38,410 nucleotides of DNA, taken from Clostridia bacterium (GTDB lineage Bacteria; Bacillota; Clostridia; Christensenellales; Borkfalkiaceae). Both the position numbers and the translations under genes were made by a program. The stretch is from assembly GCA_017886545.1 (NCBI GenBank), contig JAGHJS010000052.1, positions 1 to 38,410 on the forward strand, written 5' to 3'. Position 1 is the stretch's first letter; every line of letters begins with the position of its first letter. Of this stretch, positions 25,754-38,410 are shown one piece after another. Under the pieces are notes generated by a model, which did not search any database, was not told where the DNA came from, and saw only the letters and a list, made by a program, of their open reading frames with translations.

Positions 25754-26048
25754 GATCAAAGGGAAACCGATGAGGCAGAAGAGTAGCGCAAAAGGTCTGT
25801 TTTCAGAGAGCTTTTGGTTGGTGCAAAAAAGCAGCGGCGTTTGCGTGAATGGACTGCCGAGGGCATCTTCGAGCCTGCGTTGCAGGGGTAGCGGATGACG
25901 CGTCTTTCGCGTTACAGGAAGGGGATATAACTCCCGAAAGGGGGCGTATCTGCAAGGAGGCGGCAGGATCGCAGAACGGTCTGCCGTGAAATCGGGTGGC
26001 AACACGGTTCATTCGTCCCGAACGAGTGGATCGTGTTTTTATTTTTTT
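25754..26048 (+). promoter_or_regulatory. T-box leader, tryptophan-specific
   Basis: A tRNA-sensing transcription attenuator. Stem I has the expected GAGTAG start, the AGAGAG/GGTTGGTG distal elements (about 25803-25832) and GTGAA before the specifier. The specifier codon is TGG (25850-25852), seven bases before the conserved GAG, so it reads tRNA-Trp. The T-box proper is GGGTGGCAACACGG (25994-26007); its TGGC pairs with a GCCA tRNA end, matching the G discriminator of bacterial tRNA-Trp. The terminator is a 14-bp stem (26003-26035, loop CCCGA) followed by TTTTTATTTTTTT. Uncharged tRNA-Trp would favour the antiterminator and switch on the transporter behind it. Confidence 0.93.
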
Positions 26049-27186: not shown

Positions 27187-28227
27187 ATGTTTTTTCTCAA
27201 CCAGATGAGCACCGTTCTGCAGATGGGCTTCATCTACGCCGTTGTGGGCATCGGCGTGTACATAACCTATAAAATTCTGGACTTCCCCGACCTTTCGGTA
27301 GACGGCACGTTCCCCCTCGGCGGCGTGGTCTTTTCGGTGCTGCTCGTGGCGGGGTGCCCGTGGCCGGTCGCCATGCTCGTTTCCTTTTTCGCGGGCGCGG
27401 GGGCGGGGCTCATCACGGGGCTGCTGCATGTAAAATTAAAGATCAACGGGCTGCTGTCGGGCATCATCACGATGACGGCGCTCGTCTCCGTCAACTACCT
27501 CATCGCGGGCGGGCCGCAGGTCTCCTTCGCGCAGGAGGATACGCTGCTCAACAACGGCTTCCTTGACGGCTTGCCCCGCGTTGCGTCCAACTACATGCAG
27601 GTGTTGTTTATCCTGCTCATCGTGGTGCTGTGCAAAGTGCTGCTCGACCTGTTTTTAAAGACGAAGGCGGGCTTTCTGCTGCGCGCCACGGGCGACAATC
27701 CGCAGCTCGTCACCCAGATGGGCAAAAACGCGGATAACTACAAGATGCTCGGGTTGGCGCTCGCCAACGGCATCGTGGCGCTGGCGGGCAGCCTGTACTG
27801 CCAGTACGCCAGCTCGTTCAACTCCAATATGGGCACGGGTACGGTGGTCATCGCGCTCGCGTGCGTCATCATCGGGTGCGTCATCGCCAAACACATCCGC
27901 CCGATGGCGAACACCACGGGCGTGGTCGTCGGCGCGCTCATCTACTATGCCATCCTCTCCGTCGCCATGCTGCTGCTGGGCAGCGACTATACGCGGCTCA
28001 TCGTCGCGGTGCTGTTCGTCATCGTGCTCATCTTCGATACGGGGCTGATCGGGCGCACGGTGAAAAAGCTGTTCCGTCGGAAAAAGAAGGAGAAGGGCGG
28101 CGGTGCGTCCGGCGGGTCTGCTGCGGCAGGCGCGGGCGGGCAAGCCGCCGAGGATGCGGGCTTGGCGGAGCGATCCGCCGAAGATCCTGCCGCGGAAGGC
28201 GAAGGAGTGTCAAAAGGCAGTGCTTGA
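27187..28227 (+). CDS. trpY: Tryptophan ABC transporter permease (TrpY-like)
   Basis: A 346-residue inner-membrane permease of the BPD_transp_2 type, with about eight to nine hydrophobic helices; the conserved start is MGFIYAVVGIGVYITYKILDFPDLSVDGTFPLGG. The last ~55 residues form a charged, low-complexity cytosolic tail (KKLFRRKKKEKGGG, then Ala/Gly/Glu-rich), longer than I would expect. Its end overlaps the ATPase gene by 8 bp, so translation is coupled. Moves the ligand delivered by TrpX. Confidence 0.88.
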   Translation: MFFLNQMSTVLQMGFIYAVVGIGVYITYKILDFPDLSVDGTFPLGGVVFSVLLVAGCPWPVAMLVSFFAGAGAGLITGLLHVKLKINGLLSGIITMTALVSVNYLIAGGPQVSFAQEDTLLNNGFLDGLPRVASNYMQVLFILLIVVLCKVLLDLFLKTKAGFLLRATGDNPQLVTQMGKNADNYKMLGLALANGIVALAGSLYCQYASSFNSNMGTGTVVIALACVIIGCVIAKHIRPMANTTGVVVGALIYYAILSVAMLLLGSDYTRLIVAVLFVIVLIFDTGLIGRTVKKLFRRKKKEKGGGASGGSAAAGAGGQAAEDAGLAERSAEDPAAEGEGVSKGSA

Positions 28228-28993
28228 ATTACAGAACATCCGCAAAGTTTTCAATAAGGGCACGCCCGACGAGAACGTGCTGTTCGACGGCTTCAACTTC
28301 TCCGTGGCAGAAGGGGAGTTCGTCTCCATCGTCGGCTCCAACGGGTCGGGCAAAACGACGCTTTTAAACCTCATCAGCGGCACCATGCGGCCGGACGAGG
28401 GCAAGGTGCTCCTGCGCGGGCAGGACATCACCGCGCAGAAAGAATTTGTGCGCGCGCGGCGCATCGGCAGGGTGTTTCAGGACCCTGCGGGCGGCATGGC
28501 GAACAGCATGACCATTGCCGAAAACATGGCGATCGCCGAAAACAAGGGGCGCGCTTACGGGCTTTCGGCGGCGCTGGGCAAAAAGCGCGTCGAGGCGTAC
28601 AGGGAGATGCTGCACCCCCTCGGTTTGGGGCTGGAGATGCGCATGAACGTGCCCGTCGGCTCCCTTTCGGGCGGGCAGCGGCAGCTGCTGACCCTGCTGG
28701 TCGCGACGATGACGCCCATCGATATCCTCCTTTTGGACGAACATACCGCCGCGCTCGACCCGAAGACGGCGGAACAGACGATGGAGCTGACCGACCGCAT
28801 CGTGCGCGAAAAAAAGATCACGACGCTGATGGTGACCCACAACCTGCGCTTTGCCGAGCGCTACGGCACGCGGCTGTGCATGTTCGATAAGGGGCACATC
28901 GTACTGGACGCCGCGGGCGAGGCGAAGGCGGCGCAGAAGGTGGACGACCTTCTCGCGCTCTTCAATTCGATCTCCATCGAGTGCGGCAACTGA
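28220..28993 (+). CDS. trpZ: Tryptophan ABC transporter ATP-binding protein (TrpZ-like)
   Basis: A 257-residue ABC ATPase: Walker A GSNGSGKTT (about 37-45), Q-loop VFQDPAGGMANSMT, signature LSGGQRQ, Walker B ILLLDEHTAALDP (the Glu is present), and H-loop MVTHN. The DEHTAALDP form is typical of this transporter class. The GTG start (28220) overlaps the trpY stop and begins VLELQNIRKVF, the normal start of the fold; longer in-frame starts would run through the trpY tail in another frame. A strong terminator ends the operon. Confidence 0.9.
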   Translation: MLELQNIRKVFNKGTPDENVLFDGFNFSVAEGEFVSIVGSNGSGKTTLLNLISGTMRPDEGKVLLRGQDITAQKEFVRARRIGRVFQDPAGGMANSMTIAENMAIAENKGRAYGLSAALGKKRVEAYREMLHPLGLGLEMRMNVPVGSLSGGQRQLLTLLVATMTPIDILLLDEHTAALDPKTAEQTMELTDRIVREKKITTLMVTHNLRFAERYGTRLCMFDKGHIVLDAAGEAKAAQKVDDLLALFNSISIECGN

Positions 28994-32545: not shown

Positions 32546-33780
32546 ACGCAGCGGAAACAAAGACAGCCGCCGCCGTGCTGGAAGCGGACGCGGCGGACGG
32601 CACAAAACTGCGCGTGCTCGTCGCGATGGACGTATACCTGCCCAACATGGACGGCGTGGTCAACTGCATGCGCAACCACCTTCTGCATTTTCCTGCATGG
32701 GTCGAGGCGACCGCCGTCGGACCAAAGGCGAAAAATTATGTGGACAGCGACCCTTATCCCGTCATCCGTTATAAAGGGTTCCATGTGCCCTTTTTGAAGA
32801 CGGTGGATTTCGGGTTCCCGTCCTGCGACAAGGCGTTCCGCAGGCGTATCCTTGCCATGCCGCTGGACATCATCCATGTGCACACGCCCTTCGGCGTATG
32901 CAAGGCGCTCACAAAGATCGCGCGCGAAAAAAACATCCCCATCGTTGCGACCTTCCATACGAACTACCGCATGGTGTTCAAACACATCCTGTGGCTGCCA
33001 TTCCTGTACGAGCCGTATATCCGCACGCTGGGCAGGCGGTACGGCAGGATGGACGAAATGTTTGCGGGCACGGAGGCGACGGAGGCGCAGCTGCGCAGCT
33101 TCGGCTACAAGGGGAGCTGCACCATCGTTCCCTTCGGAACGAGCCTAAAACCTTTGGCGGACAGGGCGGAGTATGCGCGCCGCGCGAACGAACGGTTCGG
33201 CTTGCGCGAGGACGAAACGGTGTTCTGCTTTATCGGGCGCATCGTCAAAAGCAAGCGCGTGCAGTTCTCGCTGGAGGCGCTCAGGCGCGTCAGGGAGAAG
33301 GGGCATTCGTTCCGTTTCATCGTGGGCGGATGCGGGAACTACGAGGCCGCCCTCCGCAAAAAGATCCGAAAACTCGGGCTGGAGGACTGCGTGATCATGG
33401 CGGGGTTCCTCAGCGACGAGGAGCTGAAAATGGTGTACGCCCGCGCCGATCTGCTGCTCTTTCCGTCCATTCTCGATAATTTTGCGCTCGTCAAAGTAGA
33501 GGCGGCGACCTTCTATACCCCCGGGCTGTACCTGCGCGGCTCGAATACGGCGTTCGGAACAAAGGATATGCACAATGCGATCCTCGCCGAAAATACGGCG
33601 GAGGACTTCGCTGAGAAGATCGAATGGGCGATCGCGCATCCGCAGGAGCTTGCCGCGATCGGAAAGAACGCGCACGACGAGCTGTACTTCTCCTGGGAGG
33701 ACGCAGCCGCCATGCAGGCACTGGAATATCGGCGCGTCATCGCGGCGTACAAACAAAAACACGGCGGCGGCAACACATAA
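32542..33780 (+). CDS. Glycosyltransferase family 4 protein
   Basis: A 412-residue GT-B glycosyltransferase. About 22 N-terminal residues are Ala-rich; the fold starts LRVLVAMDVYLPNMDGVVN. Seen: DIIHVHTPFGVC, TFHTNYRMV, GRIVKSKRVQFSLEAL (donor domain), and PSILDNFALVKVEA, the E-x7-E donor motif with Asp for the first Glu. The profile is close to 1,2-diacylglycerol 3-glucosyltransferase-like GT4 proteins. Being translationally coupled to the heptose genes, it may use GDP-heptose and attach it to a lipid or glycan; this is inference. It ends just before a bidirectional terminator. Confidence 0.87.
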   Translation: MNAAETKTAAAVLEADAADGTKLRVLVAMDVYLPNMDGVVNCMRNHLLHFPAWVEATAVGPKAKNYVDSDPYPVIRYKGFHVPFLKTVDFGFPSCDKAFRRRILAMPLDIIHVHTPFGVCKALTKIAREKNIPIVATFHTNYRMVFKHILWLPFLYEPYIRTLGRRYGRMDEMFAGTEATEAQLRSFGYKGSCTIVPFGTSLKPLADRAEYARRANERFGLREDETVFCFIGRIVKSKRVQFSLEALRRVREKGHSFRFIVGGCGNYEAALRKKIRKLGLEDCVIMAGFLSDEELKMVYARADLLLFPSILDNFALVKVEAATFYTPGLYLRGSNTAFGTKDMHNAILAENTAEDFAEKIEWAIAHPQELAAIGKNAHDELYFSWEDAAAMQALEYRRVIAAYKQKHGGGNT

Positions 33781-33810
33781 AGGCGGCGAAAATGCCGATA
33801 AAAGAAACGG

Positions 33811-33837
33811 AAAACGGACCTGCGGGTCCGTTTTTTT
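33811..33837. terminator. Bidirectional terminator between the GT4 and ABC-F genes
   Basis: AAAACGGACC pairs with GGTCCGTTTT over TGCG, with seven Ts rightwards. The stop codon of the ABC-F gene (33836-33838, minus) lies at the edge of this tract. Confidence 0.9.
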
Positions 33838-35350
33838 ATCGGCCGCGCACGTTCGCGTCCGACGTGCGGCACGGGCGGCGCAGTTCGGCCGTGCGGGTCG
33901 CTACGTTTCGGCAGAACGCGGCGTCGTGCTCGATAAACAGCAGCGTGGGGCGGAAGCGCAGGATGAGTTCTTCGAGCTGTATGCGCGAAACGAGGTCGAT
34001 AAAGTTGAGCGCCTCGTCCCAGATATACAGGTGCGCAGGCGTCGCGAGCGAAACGGCGAGCGCGACCTTTTTCTTTTGCCCGTCGCTGTATCCGGAAATA
34101 TAGCGCGAAAACAGTTCGCTGCGCAAATCGAATTTGTTCAGGATCGCCATCACGAGCGTAGGGTCAGCTCCGTGCGCGGCGGCGTATCCGGCAACGGTGC
34201 CGCAAATGCCGCTCACGTTCTGCGGCAGGTAGGATATGCGCAGGTCGCCGGGTACCTGCACGATGCCGCTCTGCGCGGTCAGTTCGCCCGTCAGGAGCTT
34301 TAAAACGGTGGACTTGCTGCTGCCGTTTTCTCCCCTGAGCGCGATGCGCTCGCCCCGTTCCACGGTCAGCGAAACGTCGCGCACGGCGGGGCTTTCGCCG
34401 AAGGAAAAGTCCGCATGGGTCAGCGGGCAGAGGGTCTGTGTGCGGAAGAAGAGGGGTGTCAGCTTAAAATTTCCGTAGAACTCCGCGTTTTTGAGCAGCG
34501 AACGCTTTTCCTCCGCCGCCTGTTCGCGGCGCCGCTCGGTCACTTTCGCGCGCTTTGCCATTTTCGCCGCCATAGCGCCGATGTGCCCCTTGTCGGGGCG
34601 CAGACCGCCCACTTTTTGGTTCTTGCTCGCTTCCACCTTGTCCGCCCACGCCGACGTGCGCGCTGCCGCGGTTTCCAATGCGGCGATCTGCTTTTGCAGG
34701 CGCGCGCTCTTCTCCGCTTCGGCGGCGTCGGCGGCGGTTTTATCCCTCCACCAGTCGGAAAAGCTTCCTTTGCGCAGTTCGTATCCCTCCGCGTTCAGTG
34801 CCAGAACGTGATCGCAGCAGCCGTCCAAAAAATCGCGGTCGTGCGAAACAAGGATGAACCCGCGCTTTGCGGCGAGGTAGTCGCTGAGTTTTTTCCGTCC
34901 CGCTTCGTCGAGGTGGTTGGTCGGCTCGTCGATGAGCGGAAAGGCGTTTTCCTTTGCGAACAGCGCGGCGAGCATGACCTTCGTGCGTTCGCCGCCCGAA
35001 AGGGTGCAAAGCGGCCGTTCGAGCGCTTCCTCGCCGACGCCGAGCTTGTTCAGCTCCGCCTTTAAACGCCAGAGTTCGATGTCGGGCTGTGCGACGTACA
35101 GGGAGGAAAGCGCGTCGAGCGATGCGTCGGCGGCGTAGGGGAAGTATTCCGCCTGCACACCCGCGCTTATCCTGCCGCTGTATCCGTATTCGCCGCACAG
35201 CAGGTGCAGAAGGGTGCTCTTTCCCCGCCCGTTCCGCCCCGTCAGTGCAAGTTTCCAGTCGGTGTCGAGCACGGCGGAAAAGTTTTCAAAGACGTTCTGC
35301 GCGGCACCTGGGTAGCCGAACGTCACGTTTTGCAGGATGATCGAAGACAT
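33836..35350 (-). CDS. ABC-F protein, Lsa/CplR-like ribosomal protection type
   Basis: A 504-residue cytosolic protein with two ABC domains and no TM segment. Domain 1: Walker A GRNGRGKST (38-46), LSGGE, DEPTNHLD. Domain 2: GENGSSKST, the degenerate signature YSDGQ, and WDEALNFID. The linker between them is highly charged. The N-L-N-F-I-D style second Walker B and the phrases DTDWKLALTGRNGRGKST and AHLYIWDE are typical of the Lsa/CplR branch, whose members displace lincosamide, streptogramin A and pleuromutilin drugs from the ribosome. The second Walker B has Ala where Pro is usual. Function here is inferred. The ATG at 35350 follows AGGAGGT; it is controlled by the leader described below. 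Confidence 0.88.
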   Translation of the reverse strand: MSSIILQNVTFGYPGAAQNVFENFSAVLDTDWKLALTGRNGRGKSTLLHLLCGEYGYSGRISAGVQAEYFPYAADASLDALSSLYVAQPDIELWRLKAELNKLGVGEEALERPLCTLSGGERTKVMLAALFAKENAFPLIDEPTNHLDEAGRKKLSDYLAAKRGFILVSHDRDFLDGCCDHVLALNAEGYELRKGSFSDWWRDKTAADAAEAEKSARLQKQIAALETAAARTSAWADKVEASKNQKVGGLRPDKGHIGAMAAKMAKRAKVTERRREQAAEEKRSLLKNAEFYGNFKLTPLFFRTQTLCPLTHADFSFGESPAVRDVSLTVERGERIALRGENGSSKSTVLKLLTGELTAQSGIVQVPGDLRISYLPQNVSGICGTVAGYAAAHGADPTLVMAILNKFDLRSELFSRYISGYSDGQKKKVALAVSLATPAHLYIWDEALNFIDLVSRIQLEELILRFRPTLLFIEHDAAFCRNVATRTAELRRPCRTSDANVRGR

Positions 35351-35376
35351 AACGTACCTCCTTTGCGAGCCGCAAG

Positions 35377-35518
35377 AAAAAAAGAACCGCACAGAAGATG
35401 CGGCTCTTTCAAACGGAAAAATTGGCAAATATAAAAGATCTTCTGCGGCAGGGTACGCCCGTACCGCCGCGGATATGCGGGGCAGAGCGTTTCGGTTTTA
35501 CGCGCAGAAGATATACAT
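35377..35518 (-). promoter_or_regulatory. Putative ribosome-mediated attenuator of the ABC-F gene
   Basis: Three segments, given on the minus strand. Segment 1, ATCTTCTGCG (35512-35503), lies inside a six-codon leader ORF. Segment 2, CCGCAGAAGATC (35448-35437), pairs perfectly with segment 1 over 10 bp. Segment 3 is an 11-bp terminator stem, AAAGAGCCGCA/TGCGGTTCTTT (35409-35381), followed by seven Ts. Segment 2 can also pair with the loop and 3' arm of segment 3 (ATCTTCT plus GCGG, 11 bp with a 2-nt bulge), which would destroy the terminator. So 1:2 allows termination and 2:3 prevents it. Confidence 0.75.
35498..35518 (-). CDS. Leader peptide ORF MYIFCA upstream of the ABC-F gene
   Basis: ATG at 35518-35516, then Tyr-Ile-Phe-Cys-Ala and TAA (35500-35498). 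GAGGGAG stands a few bases before the ATG. Its last codons are segment 1 of the attenuator, so a ribosome on this ORF would cover it. Small and unproven, but well placed. Confidence 0.6.
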   Translation of the reverse strand: MYIFCA

Positions 35519-35542
35519 GGCTCCCTCGGAAGATTTTTTACC

Positions 35543-35571
35543 ATTGTACCACGCCGCGGCGCGTTTGTCAA
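35543..35571 (-). promoter_or_regulatory. Promoter of the ABC-F leader transcript
   Basis: On the minus strand TTGACA (35566-35571), 17-bp spacer, TACAAT (35543-35548); predicted leader of about 185 nt before the ABC-F start. Confidence 0.88.
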
Positions 35572-35613
35572 GACGTAGTGGGAGACCGTTTTCCGTCGGG
35601 TCGCCGCGGGGCA

Positions 35614-35649
35614 AAAAAAGGGAGCAGGCGAACGCCTGCTCCCTTTTTT
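35614..35649. terminator. Bidirectional terminator at the end of the pyruvate oxidoreductase gene
   Basis: AAAAAAGGGAGCAGGC pairs with GCCTGCTCCCTTTTTT over GAAC. It ends the minus-strand oxidoreductase transcript and insulates the ABC-F promoter. Confidence 0.92.
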
Positions 35650-35662
35650 CTGCGAACGGGAA

Positions 35663-38410
35663 TTACTCCTGTTCGGCAAGTTTCTTGTACCCTTCGTAGC
35701 GGGCCTTGCTCTCCTCTTCGTTCTCTTTGAAGAGTTTTTCCGCCGCTTCGGGCTGCGTCTTTTTCAGCGAAGAGTAACGGGTCTCGCCGAGGATGAACGC
35801 CTGGTAATCGCCCGTCGGCTCTTTGCTGTCCAGCGTGAAGGGGTTCTTGCCCTCTTCTTTCAGAGCGGGGTTGTAACGGTACAGCTGCCAGTAGCCGCAG
35901 TCGACCGCGCGCTTCTCTTCGTCCTGGCTCTTGCTCATGTTGATGCCGTGGTTGATGCAGGGCGCGTACGCGATGATCAGCGAAGGACCGTGGTACTTTT
36001 CCGCCTCCATGATCGCGTTGAGGAACTGCTGTTTGTTCGCGCCCATGGAAACCTGTGCGACGTACACATAGCCGTAGCTCATCGCCATCATGCCGAGGTC
36101 CTTCTTCTTGACGCGCTTACCGGAGGAAGCGAACTTCGCGACGGAGCCGGTCGGCGTGGATTTGGACGCCTGTCCGCCCGTGTTGGAGTATACCTCGGTG
36201 TCGAGCACGAGCACGTTCACGTCTTCGTCGGAAGCCAGCACGTGGTCCAACCCGCCGTAACCGATGTCGTACGCCCAGCCGTCGCCGCCGAAGATCCAGA
36301 CAGACTTCTTGACGAGGCAGTCTTTCGCTTTGAGCACTTCTTCGCAGAGCGCCGCGCACTCTTTGCCGCAGTCCGTGCAGCCTTCGCACGCCTTGATCAG
36401 CTTCTCCGCGGCGGCCTTGCTGCCCTCCGCGTCTTCCATGTTCGCGAGCCATTCTTCGCAGGCGGCCTTGTCGTCGCCCGTCCACATCTCGGCGAGCTGC
36501 TTCACTTCGTCCGCGAGCTTATGGCGCCGCGCGCTGTACGCGAGGTTCATGCCGTAGCCGAATTCTGCGTTATCCTCGAACAGGCTGTTCGCCCAGGCGG
36601 GGCCGTGGCCCTGTTTGTTCGTGGTGTACGGGCAGGTAGGGGAGGAACCGCCGTAGATGGAGGAGCAGCCCGTCGCGTTCGCGATGACCATGCGGTCGCC
36701 GAACATCTGGGTCACGACCTTGACGTACGGGGTCTCGCCGCAGCCTGCGCATGCGCCCGAGAACTCGAACAGCGGCTGGTTGAACTGGCTGCCCTTGACC
36801 GTCGTGCGCTTGATGGAGGAGGTATCCGCCTGCTGCACTTCCTGCGAATAGTTCCAGTTCGCCGCGTCGGCTTCCGCAACTTCTTCCAGCGGGACCATAA
36901 CGAGCGCTTTGTTGCCCTTCATGCCCGGGCAGACGTTCGCGCAGACGCCGCAGCCCATGCAGTCCAGAGGAGAGACCTGCATGCGGAACTGCGTGCCTTT
37001 GAGCCCCGTCGTGGGCTTGGTGACGAACGTTTCGGGTTTTGCCGTAGCGTCGTCGATGACCACGGGGCGGATGCACGCGTGCGGGCAGACGAAGGAGCAC
37101 TGGTTGCACTGGATGCAGTTTTCAGGCAGCCACTTCGGCACCTTGACGGCGACGCCGCGCTTTTCGAATTTCGTCGTCCCGACGGGCACGGAGCCGTCCG
37201 CATTGAACGCGGAGGTCGGCAGCTTGTCGCCCTCGAGCACGAGGATGGGATGCACAACGTTCTTGAAGTACTCGTTGTCCGCCACGGCGACCATCGGCGC
37301 GCCTTCGGTCGCGTCCGCCCAGCTTGCGGGGTAGTTGACTTCCTGCAGCTGCGCCTTCGCAGAGTCGATGGCGGCATAGTTCATGTTGACCACCGCGTCG
37401 CCCTTGCGCGAGAACTTCTTGAACACGGCTTTCTTCATGTAATCGGAAGCCTGTTCGTAAGGCATGATGGAGTCGTTGATGTAGAAGAATGCAGACTGCA
37501 TGATCGTGCTCGTCTTGCCGTTCAGCCCGATGTCCATCGCGATCTTGATCGCGTCGATGTTATAGAATTTGAGGTGCTTTTTCGCGATCTGCTGTTTGAC
37601 CTTGGCGGGCAGGTTCTTTTCCAGCTCTTCCATGGTCGTCCACTGCGAGTTCAGAAGGAACTTGCCGCCCTCTTTGATGTCGGAGAGCATGTCGTAGCGG
37701 GTGATGTAGGAGGGGTTGTGGCAGGCGACGAAGTCCGCGCTGTCAATGAGGTACGAGCTCTGGATGGGCGTCTTGCCGAAACGCAGGTGCGAAACGGTGA
37801 TGCCGCCCGATTTTTTGGAGTCGTAGAAGAAGTACGCCTGCGCATACATGTCGGTGTGGTCGCCGATGATCTTGATGGAATCTTTGTTCGCGCCGACCGT
37901 GCCGTCCGCGCCGCGCCCGTAGAACTTGCAGGAGATCGCCCCTTCGGGAGCGGCGTCGTACTTCTCGGAGAAGTCGAGCGAGGTGTTCGTCAGATCGTCA
38001 TAGATGCCGACGGTGAAGTGGTTCTTCGGCTCCTTCTGCTCGAGGTTCTTGTACACCGCGTAGCACATCGAGGGGTTGAACTCCTTCGAACCGAGGCCGT
38101 AGCGCCCGCCGACCACTTTGATGCCGGAAACGTTCTTTTCAAACAGCGCCGAGCACACGTCGAGGTAGAGCGGTTCGCCGAGGGAGCCGGGCTCCTTCGT
38201 GCGGTCGAGCACGGCGATCTTTTTGCAGGTCTTGGGGATCGCCGCAACGAATGCGTCCGCAACGAACGGGCGGTAGAGGCGGACTTTGATGAGGCCGACC
38301 TTGTGCCCTTCCTTGTTCATGCGGTTGATGGTCTCTTCCATCGCGTCCGCGCCGCTGCCCATGATGACGACGACGTTCTCCGCGTCGGGCGCGCCGCAGT
38401 AGTCGAACAG
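35663..38410 (-). CDS. nifJ: Pyruvate:ferredoxin (flavodoxin) oxidoreductase, C-terminal part (start outside window)
   Basis: A homodimeric cytoplasmic enzyme that oxidises pyruvate with CoA to acetyl-CoA and CO2 and reduces ferredoxin. About 915 of the usual ~1170-1180 residues are visible; the N-terminal pyruvate-binding domain lies beyond the window. In order: transketolase-like domain II (VVVIMGSGADAMEETI), the gamma domain (YGRGADGTVGANKDSI), the two-cluster ferredoxin domain (CIQCNQCSFVCPHACIRP and CMGCGVCANVCPG), and the TPP domain (CAGCGETPYVK, GCSSIYGGSSPTCPYTTN, GGDGWAYDIGYGGLDH, DTEVYSNTGGQASKSTP). The C-terminal extension after NHGINMSKSQ is present. It supplies reduced ferredoxin that the hydrogenase could use. 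Confidence 0.97.
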   Translation of the reverse strand: MFDYCGAPDAENVVVIMGSGADAMEETINRMNKEGHKVGLIKVRLYRPFVADAFVAAIPKTCKKIAVLDRTKEPGSLGEPLYLDVCSALFEKNVSGIKVVGGRYGLGSKEFNPSMCYAVYKNLEQKEPKNHFTVGIYDDLTNTSLDFSEKYDAAPEGAISCKFYGRGADGTVGANKDSIKIIGDHTDMYAQAYFFYDSKKSGGITVSHLRFGKTPIQSSYLIDSADFVACHNPSYITRYDMLSDIKEGGKFLLNSQWTTMEELEKNLPAKVKQQIAKKHLKFYNIDAIKIAMDIGLNGKTSTIMQSAFFYINDSIMPYEQASDYMKKAVFKKFSRKGDAVVNMNYAAIDSAKAQLQEVNYPASWADATEGAPMVAVADNEYFKNVVHPILVLEGDKLPTSAFNADGSVPVGTTKFEKRGVAVKVPKWLPENCIQCNQCSFVCPHACIRPVVIDDATAKPETFVTKPTTGLKGTQFRMQVSPLDCMGCGVCANVCPGMKGNKALVMVPLEEVAEADAANWNYSQEVQQADTSSIKRTTVKGSQFNQPLFEFSGACAGCGETPYVKVVTQMFGDRMVIANATGCSSIYGGSSPTCPYTTNKQGHGPAWANSLFEDNAEFGYGMNLAYSARRHKLADEVKQLAEMWTGDDKAACEEWLANMEDAEGSKAAAEKLIKACEGCTDCGKECAALCEEVLKAKDCLVKKSVWIFGGDGWAYDIGYGGLDHVLASDEDVNVLVLDTEVYSNTGGQASKSTPTGSVAKFASSGKRVKKKDLGMMAMSYGYVYVAQVSMGANKQQFLNAIMEAEKYHGPSLIIAYAPCINHGINMSKSQDEEKRAVDCGYWQLYRYNPALKEEGKNPFTLDSKEPTGDYQAFILGETRYSSLKKTQPEAAEKLFKENEEESKARYEGYKKLAEQE

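Follow-up and report, generated by a model that had tools for sequence, protein, structure and literature searches.

A candidate ribosome-operated transcription attenuator upstream of an Lsa-type ABC-F gene from an uncultured gut Clostridia bacterium

Described leaders of ABC-F genes

Attenuation of the kind proposed here belongs to a mechanism class that is already known from vmlR and cplR. The vmlR leader of Bacillus subtilis carries a short upstream open reading frame (uORF) in an anti-antiterminator stem, followed by an antiterminator and a terminator; its induction by lincomycin and the requirement of the uORF start have been experimentally proven, and a 30S toeprint was found at +16 of that start (PMC9226507). 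The cplR leader of Clostridioides difficile also combines a uORF with terminator attenuation before a Clostridia ABC-F gene, responding to lincomycin and retapamulin, while a uORF precedes lsa(A), the nearest characterised gene family (PMC10201436). In Streptomyces coelicolor, the uORFs of tiaA and are5sc give start-codon toeprints in the presence of lincosamides, tiamulin and pristinamycin IIA (PMC12421871). Besides, ribosome profiling in Campylobacter jejuni, and in E. coli as cited there, has revealed start-stop sites, with ribosomes on start codons that are followed by a stop at once or almost at once (PMC11955535).

The likeness of the present leader to that of vmlR is one of architecture, and the vmlR uORF encodes MIN (three codons) before a gene of the ABC-F subfamily ARE2 (PMC9226507). 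The cplR uORF encodes MRI, its terminator also hides the Shine-Dalgarno (SD) sequence of the gene, and the gene belongs to ARE1, and the lsa(A) leader, compared by its uORF, has the uORF consensus MAGN among homologues of at least 80% identity (PMC10201436). The genes tiaA and are5sc are of the ARE5 type with the uORFs MVGDDDISG and MLV (PMC12421871), and the start-stop sites from ribosome profiling are not tied to a resistance-gene terminator switch in the available part of that report (PMC11955535). A full-text literature search returned no paper for six of the uORF hexapeptides described below, and no start-stop leader of a resistance gene was found in a literature that lay mostly outside subscription journals and was judged by titles, beginnings of abstracts and term counts. 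Searches for Paenibacillus ABC-F or Cfr leaders gave one unrelated paper each, and neither ABC-F nor lsa appears in the accessible parts of two surveys of RNA motifs.

The leader and its gene in the window

The window, that is, the whole stretch of 38,410 nucleotides that was analysed, belongs to a MAG. Among the closest relatives of this MAG are Candidatus Borkfalkia avistercoris and some uncultured Clostridia, one of which came from chicken. Its minus strand encodes an Lsa-type ABC-F ribosome-protection-like protein of 504 aa (33836..35350), identified by NCBIfam and PDB matches. Since the best NCBIfam model was Lsa (NF000167, 532.2 bits, under the curated cut-off of 750), the general ribosomal-protection ABC-F model reached 379.9 bits and missed its cut-off of 380, the CplR model gave 129 bits, and the closest solved relative was Lsa(A) (7nhk, E 3.9e-97, with the runner-up at 2.9e-50), we classify the protein as Lsa-type on grounds of similarity, beyond the bounds of the curated family and with a presumed function in resistance. 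The gene had earlier been called Lsa/CplR-like, and the scores agree with the Lsa part of that name (532 bits) and speak against the CplR part (129 bits).

The leader region extends on the minus strand from 35571 to 35351 and comprises a promoter, the uORF, the segments S1 and S2, a terminator and the ribosome-binding site (RBS) of the ABC-F gene; every element listed in the earlier note (promoter, MYIFCA frame with its GAGGGAG site, S1, S2 and terminator) was located there. The promoter (TTGACA-17-TACAAT, with a TG ahead of the -10 box; 35543..35571, minus strand), assigned to the sigma-70 type by consensus match only, agrees with the consensus at 11 of 12 positions and is the sole promoter-like site in 33700-36000, where 0.5 would be expected from shuffles. 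The uORF ATG TAT ATC TTC TGC GCG TAA (MYIFCA; 35498..35518, minus strand) has the GAGGGAG SD sequence just 5' of it. S1 (ATCTTCTGCG; 35503..35512, minus strand) lies within the uORF, at +7 to +16 of its start codon, and S2 (CGCAGAAGAT; 35438..35447, minus strand) has two possible partners: S1, giving an anti-antiterminator, and the loop plus 3' arm of the terminator, giving an antiterminator. The latter partner, T (ATCTTCTGTG; 35390..35399, minus strand), is a near copy of S1 and covers the end of the 5' arm, the loop and the start of the 3' arm of the intrinsic terminator (35380..35410, minus strand; 13 bp, loop of 5, -17.1 kcal/mol, U-run at 35383-35377). The S1:S2 helix has 10 bp, as the earlier note had stated, without G-U, and the S2:T helix has 10 bp including one G-U. 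The RBS of the gene (AAGGAGGT; 35356..35363, minus strand) precedes the gene start at 35350, and its AGGAGGT lies 14 nt downstream of the U-run, not about 20 nt from the terminator as first estimated. Altogether, a predicted anti-antiterminator, antiterminator and terminator that exclude one another, and a short, presumably translated uORF with an SD sequence upstream of the ABC-F gene, are present in this leader, which is the arrangement expected of a ribosome-mediated attenuator.

The leader RNA folds at -70.3 kcal/mol, below all 200 shuffles (z -4.47), with the S1:S2 helix and the terminator both present, and none of 2000 mononucleotide shuffles gave a 10-bp S1:S2 helix without G-U together with a comparable S2:T helix. 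An Rfam scan of the window at gathering scores returned no family at the leader, the only matches being T-box and tRNA elsewhere; a T-box leader (25761-26023, plus strand, 111 bits) lies about 1.2 kb before an ABC-transporter-like permease/ATPase pair (27187-28993). The hairpin search also gave a terminator-like hairpin behind the ABC-F gene (33811..33834, minus strand). On its other side the leader is flanked by a frame at 35663-38362, which we take to be pyruvate:ferredoxin-oxidoreductase-like, and a strong hairpin with a T-run (35618-35645, minus strand; AAGGGAGCAGGCGTTCGCCTGCTCCCTT), resembling the terminator at the end of the upstream gene, stands shortly before the ABC-F promoter.

We consider it very probable that the leader is a ribosome-operated transcription attenuator of the ABC-F gene. 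Without drug, ribosomes would start the six-codon uORF, end at once and depart, S1 would pair with S2, the terminator would form and most transcripts would stop before the ABC-F gene. A pleuromutilin, lincosamide or streptogramin A, by blocking the first peptide bond, would hold a ribosome at the uORF start codon, and the leading edge of this ribosome (about +16) would cover S1. The S2 segment, freed in this way, could capture the emerging terminator loop and the start of the 3' arm before the terminator closes, and RNA polymerase would then continue into the ABC-F gene. Initiation at the uORF, drug stalling, termination and read-through at the window leader are what we infer from the arrangement of its parts.

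Five leaders were folded at growing transcript lengths, with a ribosome represented by a mask over -15..+16 (loci are given L-numbers, the window leader being L001). According to the folding model, S2:T does not form in the unmasked window leader, while in the masked one it outweighs the pairing of the terminator between T+6 and T+14, the terminator being favoured at equilibrium from T+16 on. With the mask, L006, L008 and L051 also had the antiterminator ahead over shorter or similar stretches and then the terminator at equilibrium; at one length the antiterminator of L051 reached 0.60 even when unmasked. The antiterminator of L233, a leader in which the start codon is directly followed by a stop (start-stop leader), was favoured at all tested lengths but one. 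The model thus suggests that only kinetics could save the antiterminator in the window leader, L006, L008 and L051, so that the proposed order of events would depend on kinetics in the window leader and in part on thermodynamics in L233. The S2 segment would meet the terminator loop first, as the loop emerges before the 3' arm.

Conservation of the leader and the genes behind it

The protein is encoded in 16 of 40 genomes of the genus, including the genome of the window, and 15 upstreams were left because the match at L014 was truncated by a contig edge. All 15 carry an SD-preceded six-codon uORF, encoding MYIFCA or MYIFCV (six loci), MYISCR (two), MYIFCR (two) and, once each, MYDSCG, MYISYR, MYISRR, MIKFSC and MNIFCA. 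An S1:S2 helix of 9-12 bp is present in 15/15 despite differing S1 segments (e.g., ATCTTCTGCG, TTCTTGCGG, ATTTCTTACAG and ATTTCCCGC), each with its own complement. A partner of S2 of at least 8 bp lies inside the terminator in 13 of the 15, and in the other two (L015 and L169) the script picked a partner that belongs to a U-run or comes after the terminator. The U-runs of L002 and L003 are weak. A stricter search for the whole arrangement was passed by 11 of the 15 upstreams and failed by L010, L011, L015 and L169. The alignment of relatives that had been suggested as a check therefore turned out in favour of the proposal, as the short frame and the alternative stems are conserved, with compensatory changes in both alternative helices.

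For a wider survey, 253 upstreams were gathered, all belonging to Lsa-like ABC-F genes of Clostridia, Bacilli and a small number of other bacteria. The gene occurs in 72 of 391 genomes of a Clostridia-class sample, of which 70 upstreams were used, and in 141 of 198 genomes of the Paenibacillus/Cohnella order, from which 89 of the matches listed were used. The search for the triple of segments required an SD sequence, S1, S2 and T, with T within a hairpin followed by a T-run. A score of at least 20 was reached by 157 of the 253 upstreams vs 1.9% of 1012 dinucleotide shuffles (96 upstreams had no triple at this score), a score of at least 22 by 125 vs 0.3%, and a score of at least 24 by 47 vs none. 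Removal of duplicates left 154 rows, at least two of which (L134 and L220) look false. S1 and T repeat a UUUCUUGC-type motif in most lineages, with S2 complementary to both.

Since the three segments were chosen for pairing, the informative figure is the gap to a swapped S2 and not the raw percentage: in 148 of the 154 rows (six motif-less rows were dropped), 1247 of 1332 cells were paired in S1:S2 and 1288 in T:S2, vs 1186 ± 5 (maximum 1205) for both helices when S2 was exchanged between rows. All three bases were changed with both pairs kept in 48 cells. A MAFFT alignment (A1) of 60 sequences picked from 84 diverse ones had 78.9% of cells paired, vs 73.8 ± 0.6 when shuffled and 47-54% when slid, and a covariation score of 0.218 vs 0.156 ± 0.008; its structure was supplied by hand, and therefore the pairing test on A1 leans towards that structure. 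The inner stem (helices 2 and 3) was paired in about 70% of cells, which is weaker than S1:S2 (92.5%), and the pairs changed on both sides numbered 18 vs 14.7 in shuffles, a value reached by 14 of 500 shuffles and also by a slide of -3. RNAalifold returned zero base pairs on A1, as several lineages have their S1 columns shifted out of register in this alignment.

With a covariance model (R2) the window leader scored 18.9 bits (E 0.06 when 11 loci were searched) despite its presence in the training alignment, and a scan of the genome of the window with E up to 1 did not recover it, while congeners outside that alignment scored 34.0 (L010), 19.1 (L013), 48.9 (L015) and 22.1 bits (L169). The window leader is an outlier to R2, and a common descent of the Borkfalkia leaders with the rest of the family would therefore rest on architecture and on higher-scoring congeners such as L007 and L015, not on R2 alone. 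R2 leaders were found in 37 of 382 Clostridia genomes, several of whose loci belong to the training set, and 34 stand directly before ABC-F genes by coordinates; a leader visible to R2 precedes about half of the 72 Clostridia ABC-F genes. One of the three other Clostridia matches, L373, precedes a CplR/Msr/Vga-like ABC-F gene (424.9 bits with the general model, cut-off 380), and the remaining two are weak (E 0.007-0.01) and probably due to chance.

R2 also matched 44 of 99 genomes in the Paenibacillus/Cohnella order, and inspection covered 13 places of this order that do not abut a listed ABC-F match together with the three Clostridia cases. At eight of these 16 places a start-stop leader is followed by a Cfr gene, at three there is an Lsa-type ABC-F gene (recognised by scan at L370 and by eye at L367 and L375), one is L373, and neither a Cfr nor an ABC-F gene was found at L368, L371, L372 and L374. 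A scan of three of the eight Cfr proteins put each of them above the Cfr equivalog cut-off (613.6-635.7 bits vs 550), the other five being judged by eye, and the eight leaders, none of which is in the R2 training set, score 43-60 bits. At these loci (L361-L366, L369 and L376) the space between terminator and cfr contains a second short uORF, M..EVV(D/N)..VN.., suggestive of double control of the gene. The ABC-F frame behind the start-stop leader of L375 has 103 aa only and is apparently truncated. At L368:2097-2198, in a genome of the Paenibacillus/Cohnella order, R2 matches on both strands and no recognised resistance gene adjoins.

A pattern search of 398 genomes of the phylum gave a match in 59, with many chance matches in coding DNA. 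Thirty matches were made into loci, and an SD sequence and a start codon are in register in seven of them (L176, L181, L183, L187, L190, L194 and L195), five of which precede an ABC-F-like frame while L176 and L181 do not. The match at L176:1471-1583 is strong (85.7 bits), the next listed frame on the same strand, about 350 nt on, resembles an Fe-S subunit and not an ABC-F protein, and this leader looks like an orphan or an assembly artefact. Among 19 matches in viral_contigs, one was a real leader (L211, IMGVR_UViG_2518285549_000001, from a contig listed as viral), with the uORF MYNFSC followed by a 494-aa Lsa-like ABC-F frame. The leader is absent from the lsa(E) plasmid upstream covered here (L220), and the lsa(B) plasmid upstream (L221) holds another kind of leader. 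A different short leader with a common VTH..LRI stretch occurs just before Lsa-type genes at L088, L094, L097, L121, L221 and L370, in the last case in tandem behind a start-stop leader.

The short reading frame and rival explanations

Over all rows, the uORF is one to seven codons long. In 145 rows with a script-assigned start it has one codon in 46, two in 11, three in five, five in 15, six in 60, seven in six, and eight and nine in one each, the last two rows and a few others being doubtful or misread: L102 was given MKE though MKNFSC is present, L080 was read as eight codons though ATG AAA TAA sits in place, the start of L126 is ambiguous and that of L147 doubtful. Nine rows had no start by script, seven of them being AUG-UAA by eye and two the false-looking triples L134 and L220. 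Bare start-stop forms account for 39 rows by script and seven by eye among the 70 rows of the Paenibacillus/Cohnella order. The 46 script-assigned start-stops end in UAA (24), UAG (15) or UGA (7) and tend to have a long spacer between SD and AUG (12 nt in 28/46). In the UGA forms an overlapping GUG could serve as an alternative start. Because a stop-containing GUAA, GUAG or GUGA can pair with a GUUA-like stretch after S2 in 93 of 154 rows, the stop codon of these uORFs may partly be a by-product of pairing. In a quick and weakly supported tree of the protein from 89 rows, uORF length class changed 13 times and start-stop against other forms six times, and the start-stop leaders sit mostly in one clade. 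Stars mark 27 of the 86 inner branches of this tree and some of its rows are mislabelled, so that the count of independent start-stop origins is provisional.

The position of the RNA segment is nearly constant. The last base of the UUCUUGC-like motif falls at +15 to +19 of the uORF start in 136 of 145 rows, and a start codon with an SD sequence lies 14-20 nt before the end of S1 in 143 of 154 rows, compared with four of 154 before the T copy, a contrast that is only partly free since the search itself demanded an SD somewhere upstream of S1. The comparison of leaders thus establishes the parts, both alternative helices as conserved pairings, the nearly fixed distance from start codon to S1 and the lack of conservation of the peptide, which suggests that the uORF is a landing pad and not a message. 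The sensor would most likely be a ribosome held at the start codon rather than an arrest peptide.

MsrD and Erm leaders work by an arrest peptide, the ribosome being stalled at an inner codon by the combined action of drug and nascent chain. That MYIFCA is a sequence-specific arrest peptide of this kind appears improbable: MYIFCA or MYIFCV is kept in the closest relatives (L001-L006) and M..FSC is common in Clostridia, but frame, sequence and length vary (MYISYR, MYISRR, MISRSR, MYTFLRA, MK and a bare AUG-stop) while the RNA segment does not, and the residue changes within the genus accompany changes in S2 that preserve pairing. The earlier proposal of a ribosome stalling on MYIFCA is therefore strengthened by conservation as regards attenuation, while MYIFCA is probably no peptide-specific arrest sequence, because the frames of relatives differ down to a start-stop and the RNA segment is nearly fixed from the start. 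Attenuation by amino-acid starvation, for example of cysteine, might be suspected from the many leaders that end in Cys-stop, and a Cys codon does occur in many uORFs; this seems hardly credible in view of the Cys-less variants (SYR, SRR, ASR, RSR, MK and start-stop) and of the genes behind the leaders, which are of the ribosome-protection or Cfr type and not of amino-acid metabolism.

An ordinary terminator with fortuitous pairings and no switch would fit the dominance of the terminator at equilibrium in four of the five folded leaders, but the shuffle, swap, slide and genus controls make it very unlikely. It is possible, though we regard it as doubtful, that the leader is a general sensor of slow initiation or ribosome defects, with the drug as one of several inducers, an explanation that overlaps with the drug-responsive attenuator. 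The start-stop forms have no peptide to discriminate with, and defects of ribosome assembly likewise induce vmlR (PMC9226507); on the other hand, most genes identified behind the leaders belong to ABC-F and Cfr, both of them families with a known role in resistance to peptidyl-transferase drugs. The M..FSC motif was likewise considered as a conserved arrest peptide, an idea given up because of the codon-level variants and the MK-stop and AUG-stop forms.

Returning to the attenuator with a ribosome held at the start codon, we lean slightly towards the broader proposal that these leaders represent a widespread, peptide-free antibiotic sensor, in which an RNA repeat lies one initiating-ribosome footprint behind a start codon, the uORF may shrink to AUG-stop, and the whole acts as a portable module that induces unrelated genes of resistance to peptidyl-transferase drugs (Lsa-type ABC-F, a CplR/Vga/Msr-like ABC-F and Cfr). 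The analysis would add uncultured gut Clostridia to the bacteria with inducible control of ABC-F genes. Thanks to the start-stop forms, one can test directly whether the leader peptide matters. If it is true that cfr has the same module, two unrelated mechanisms against the same drugs would share one sensor. At L219, L233 and L300 the sequence after S2 (e.g., GTTACTATATCTTTTCACTC) complements the SD and start region of the uORF (GGAGTGAAAAGATA), and in these leaders the anti-antiterminator hairpin may also hide the ribosome site of the uORF.
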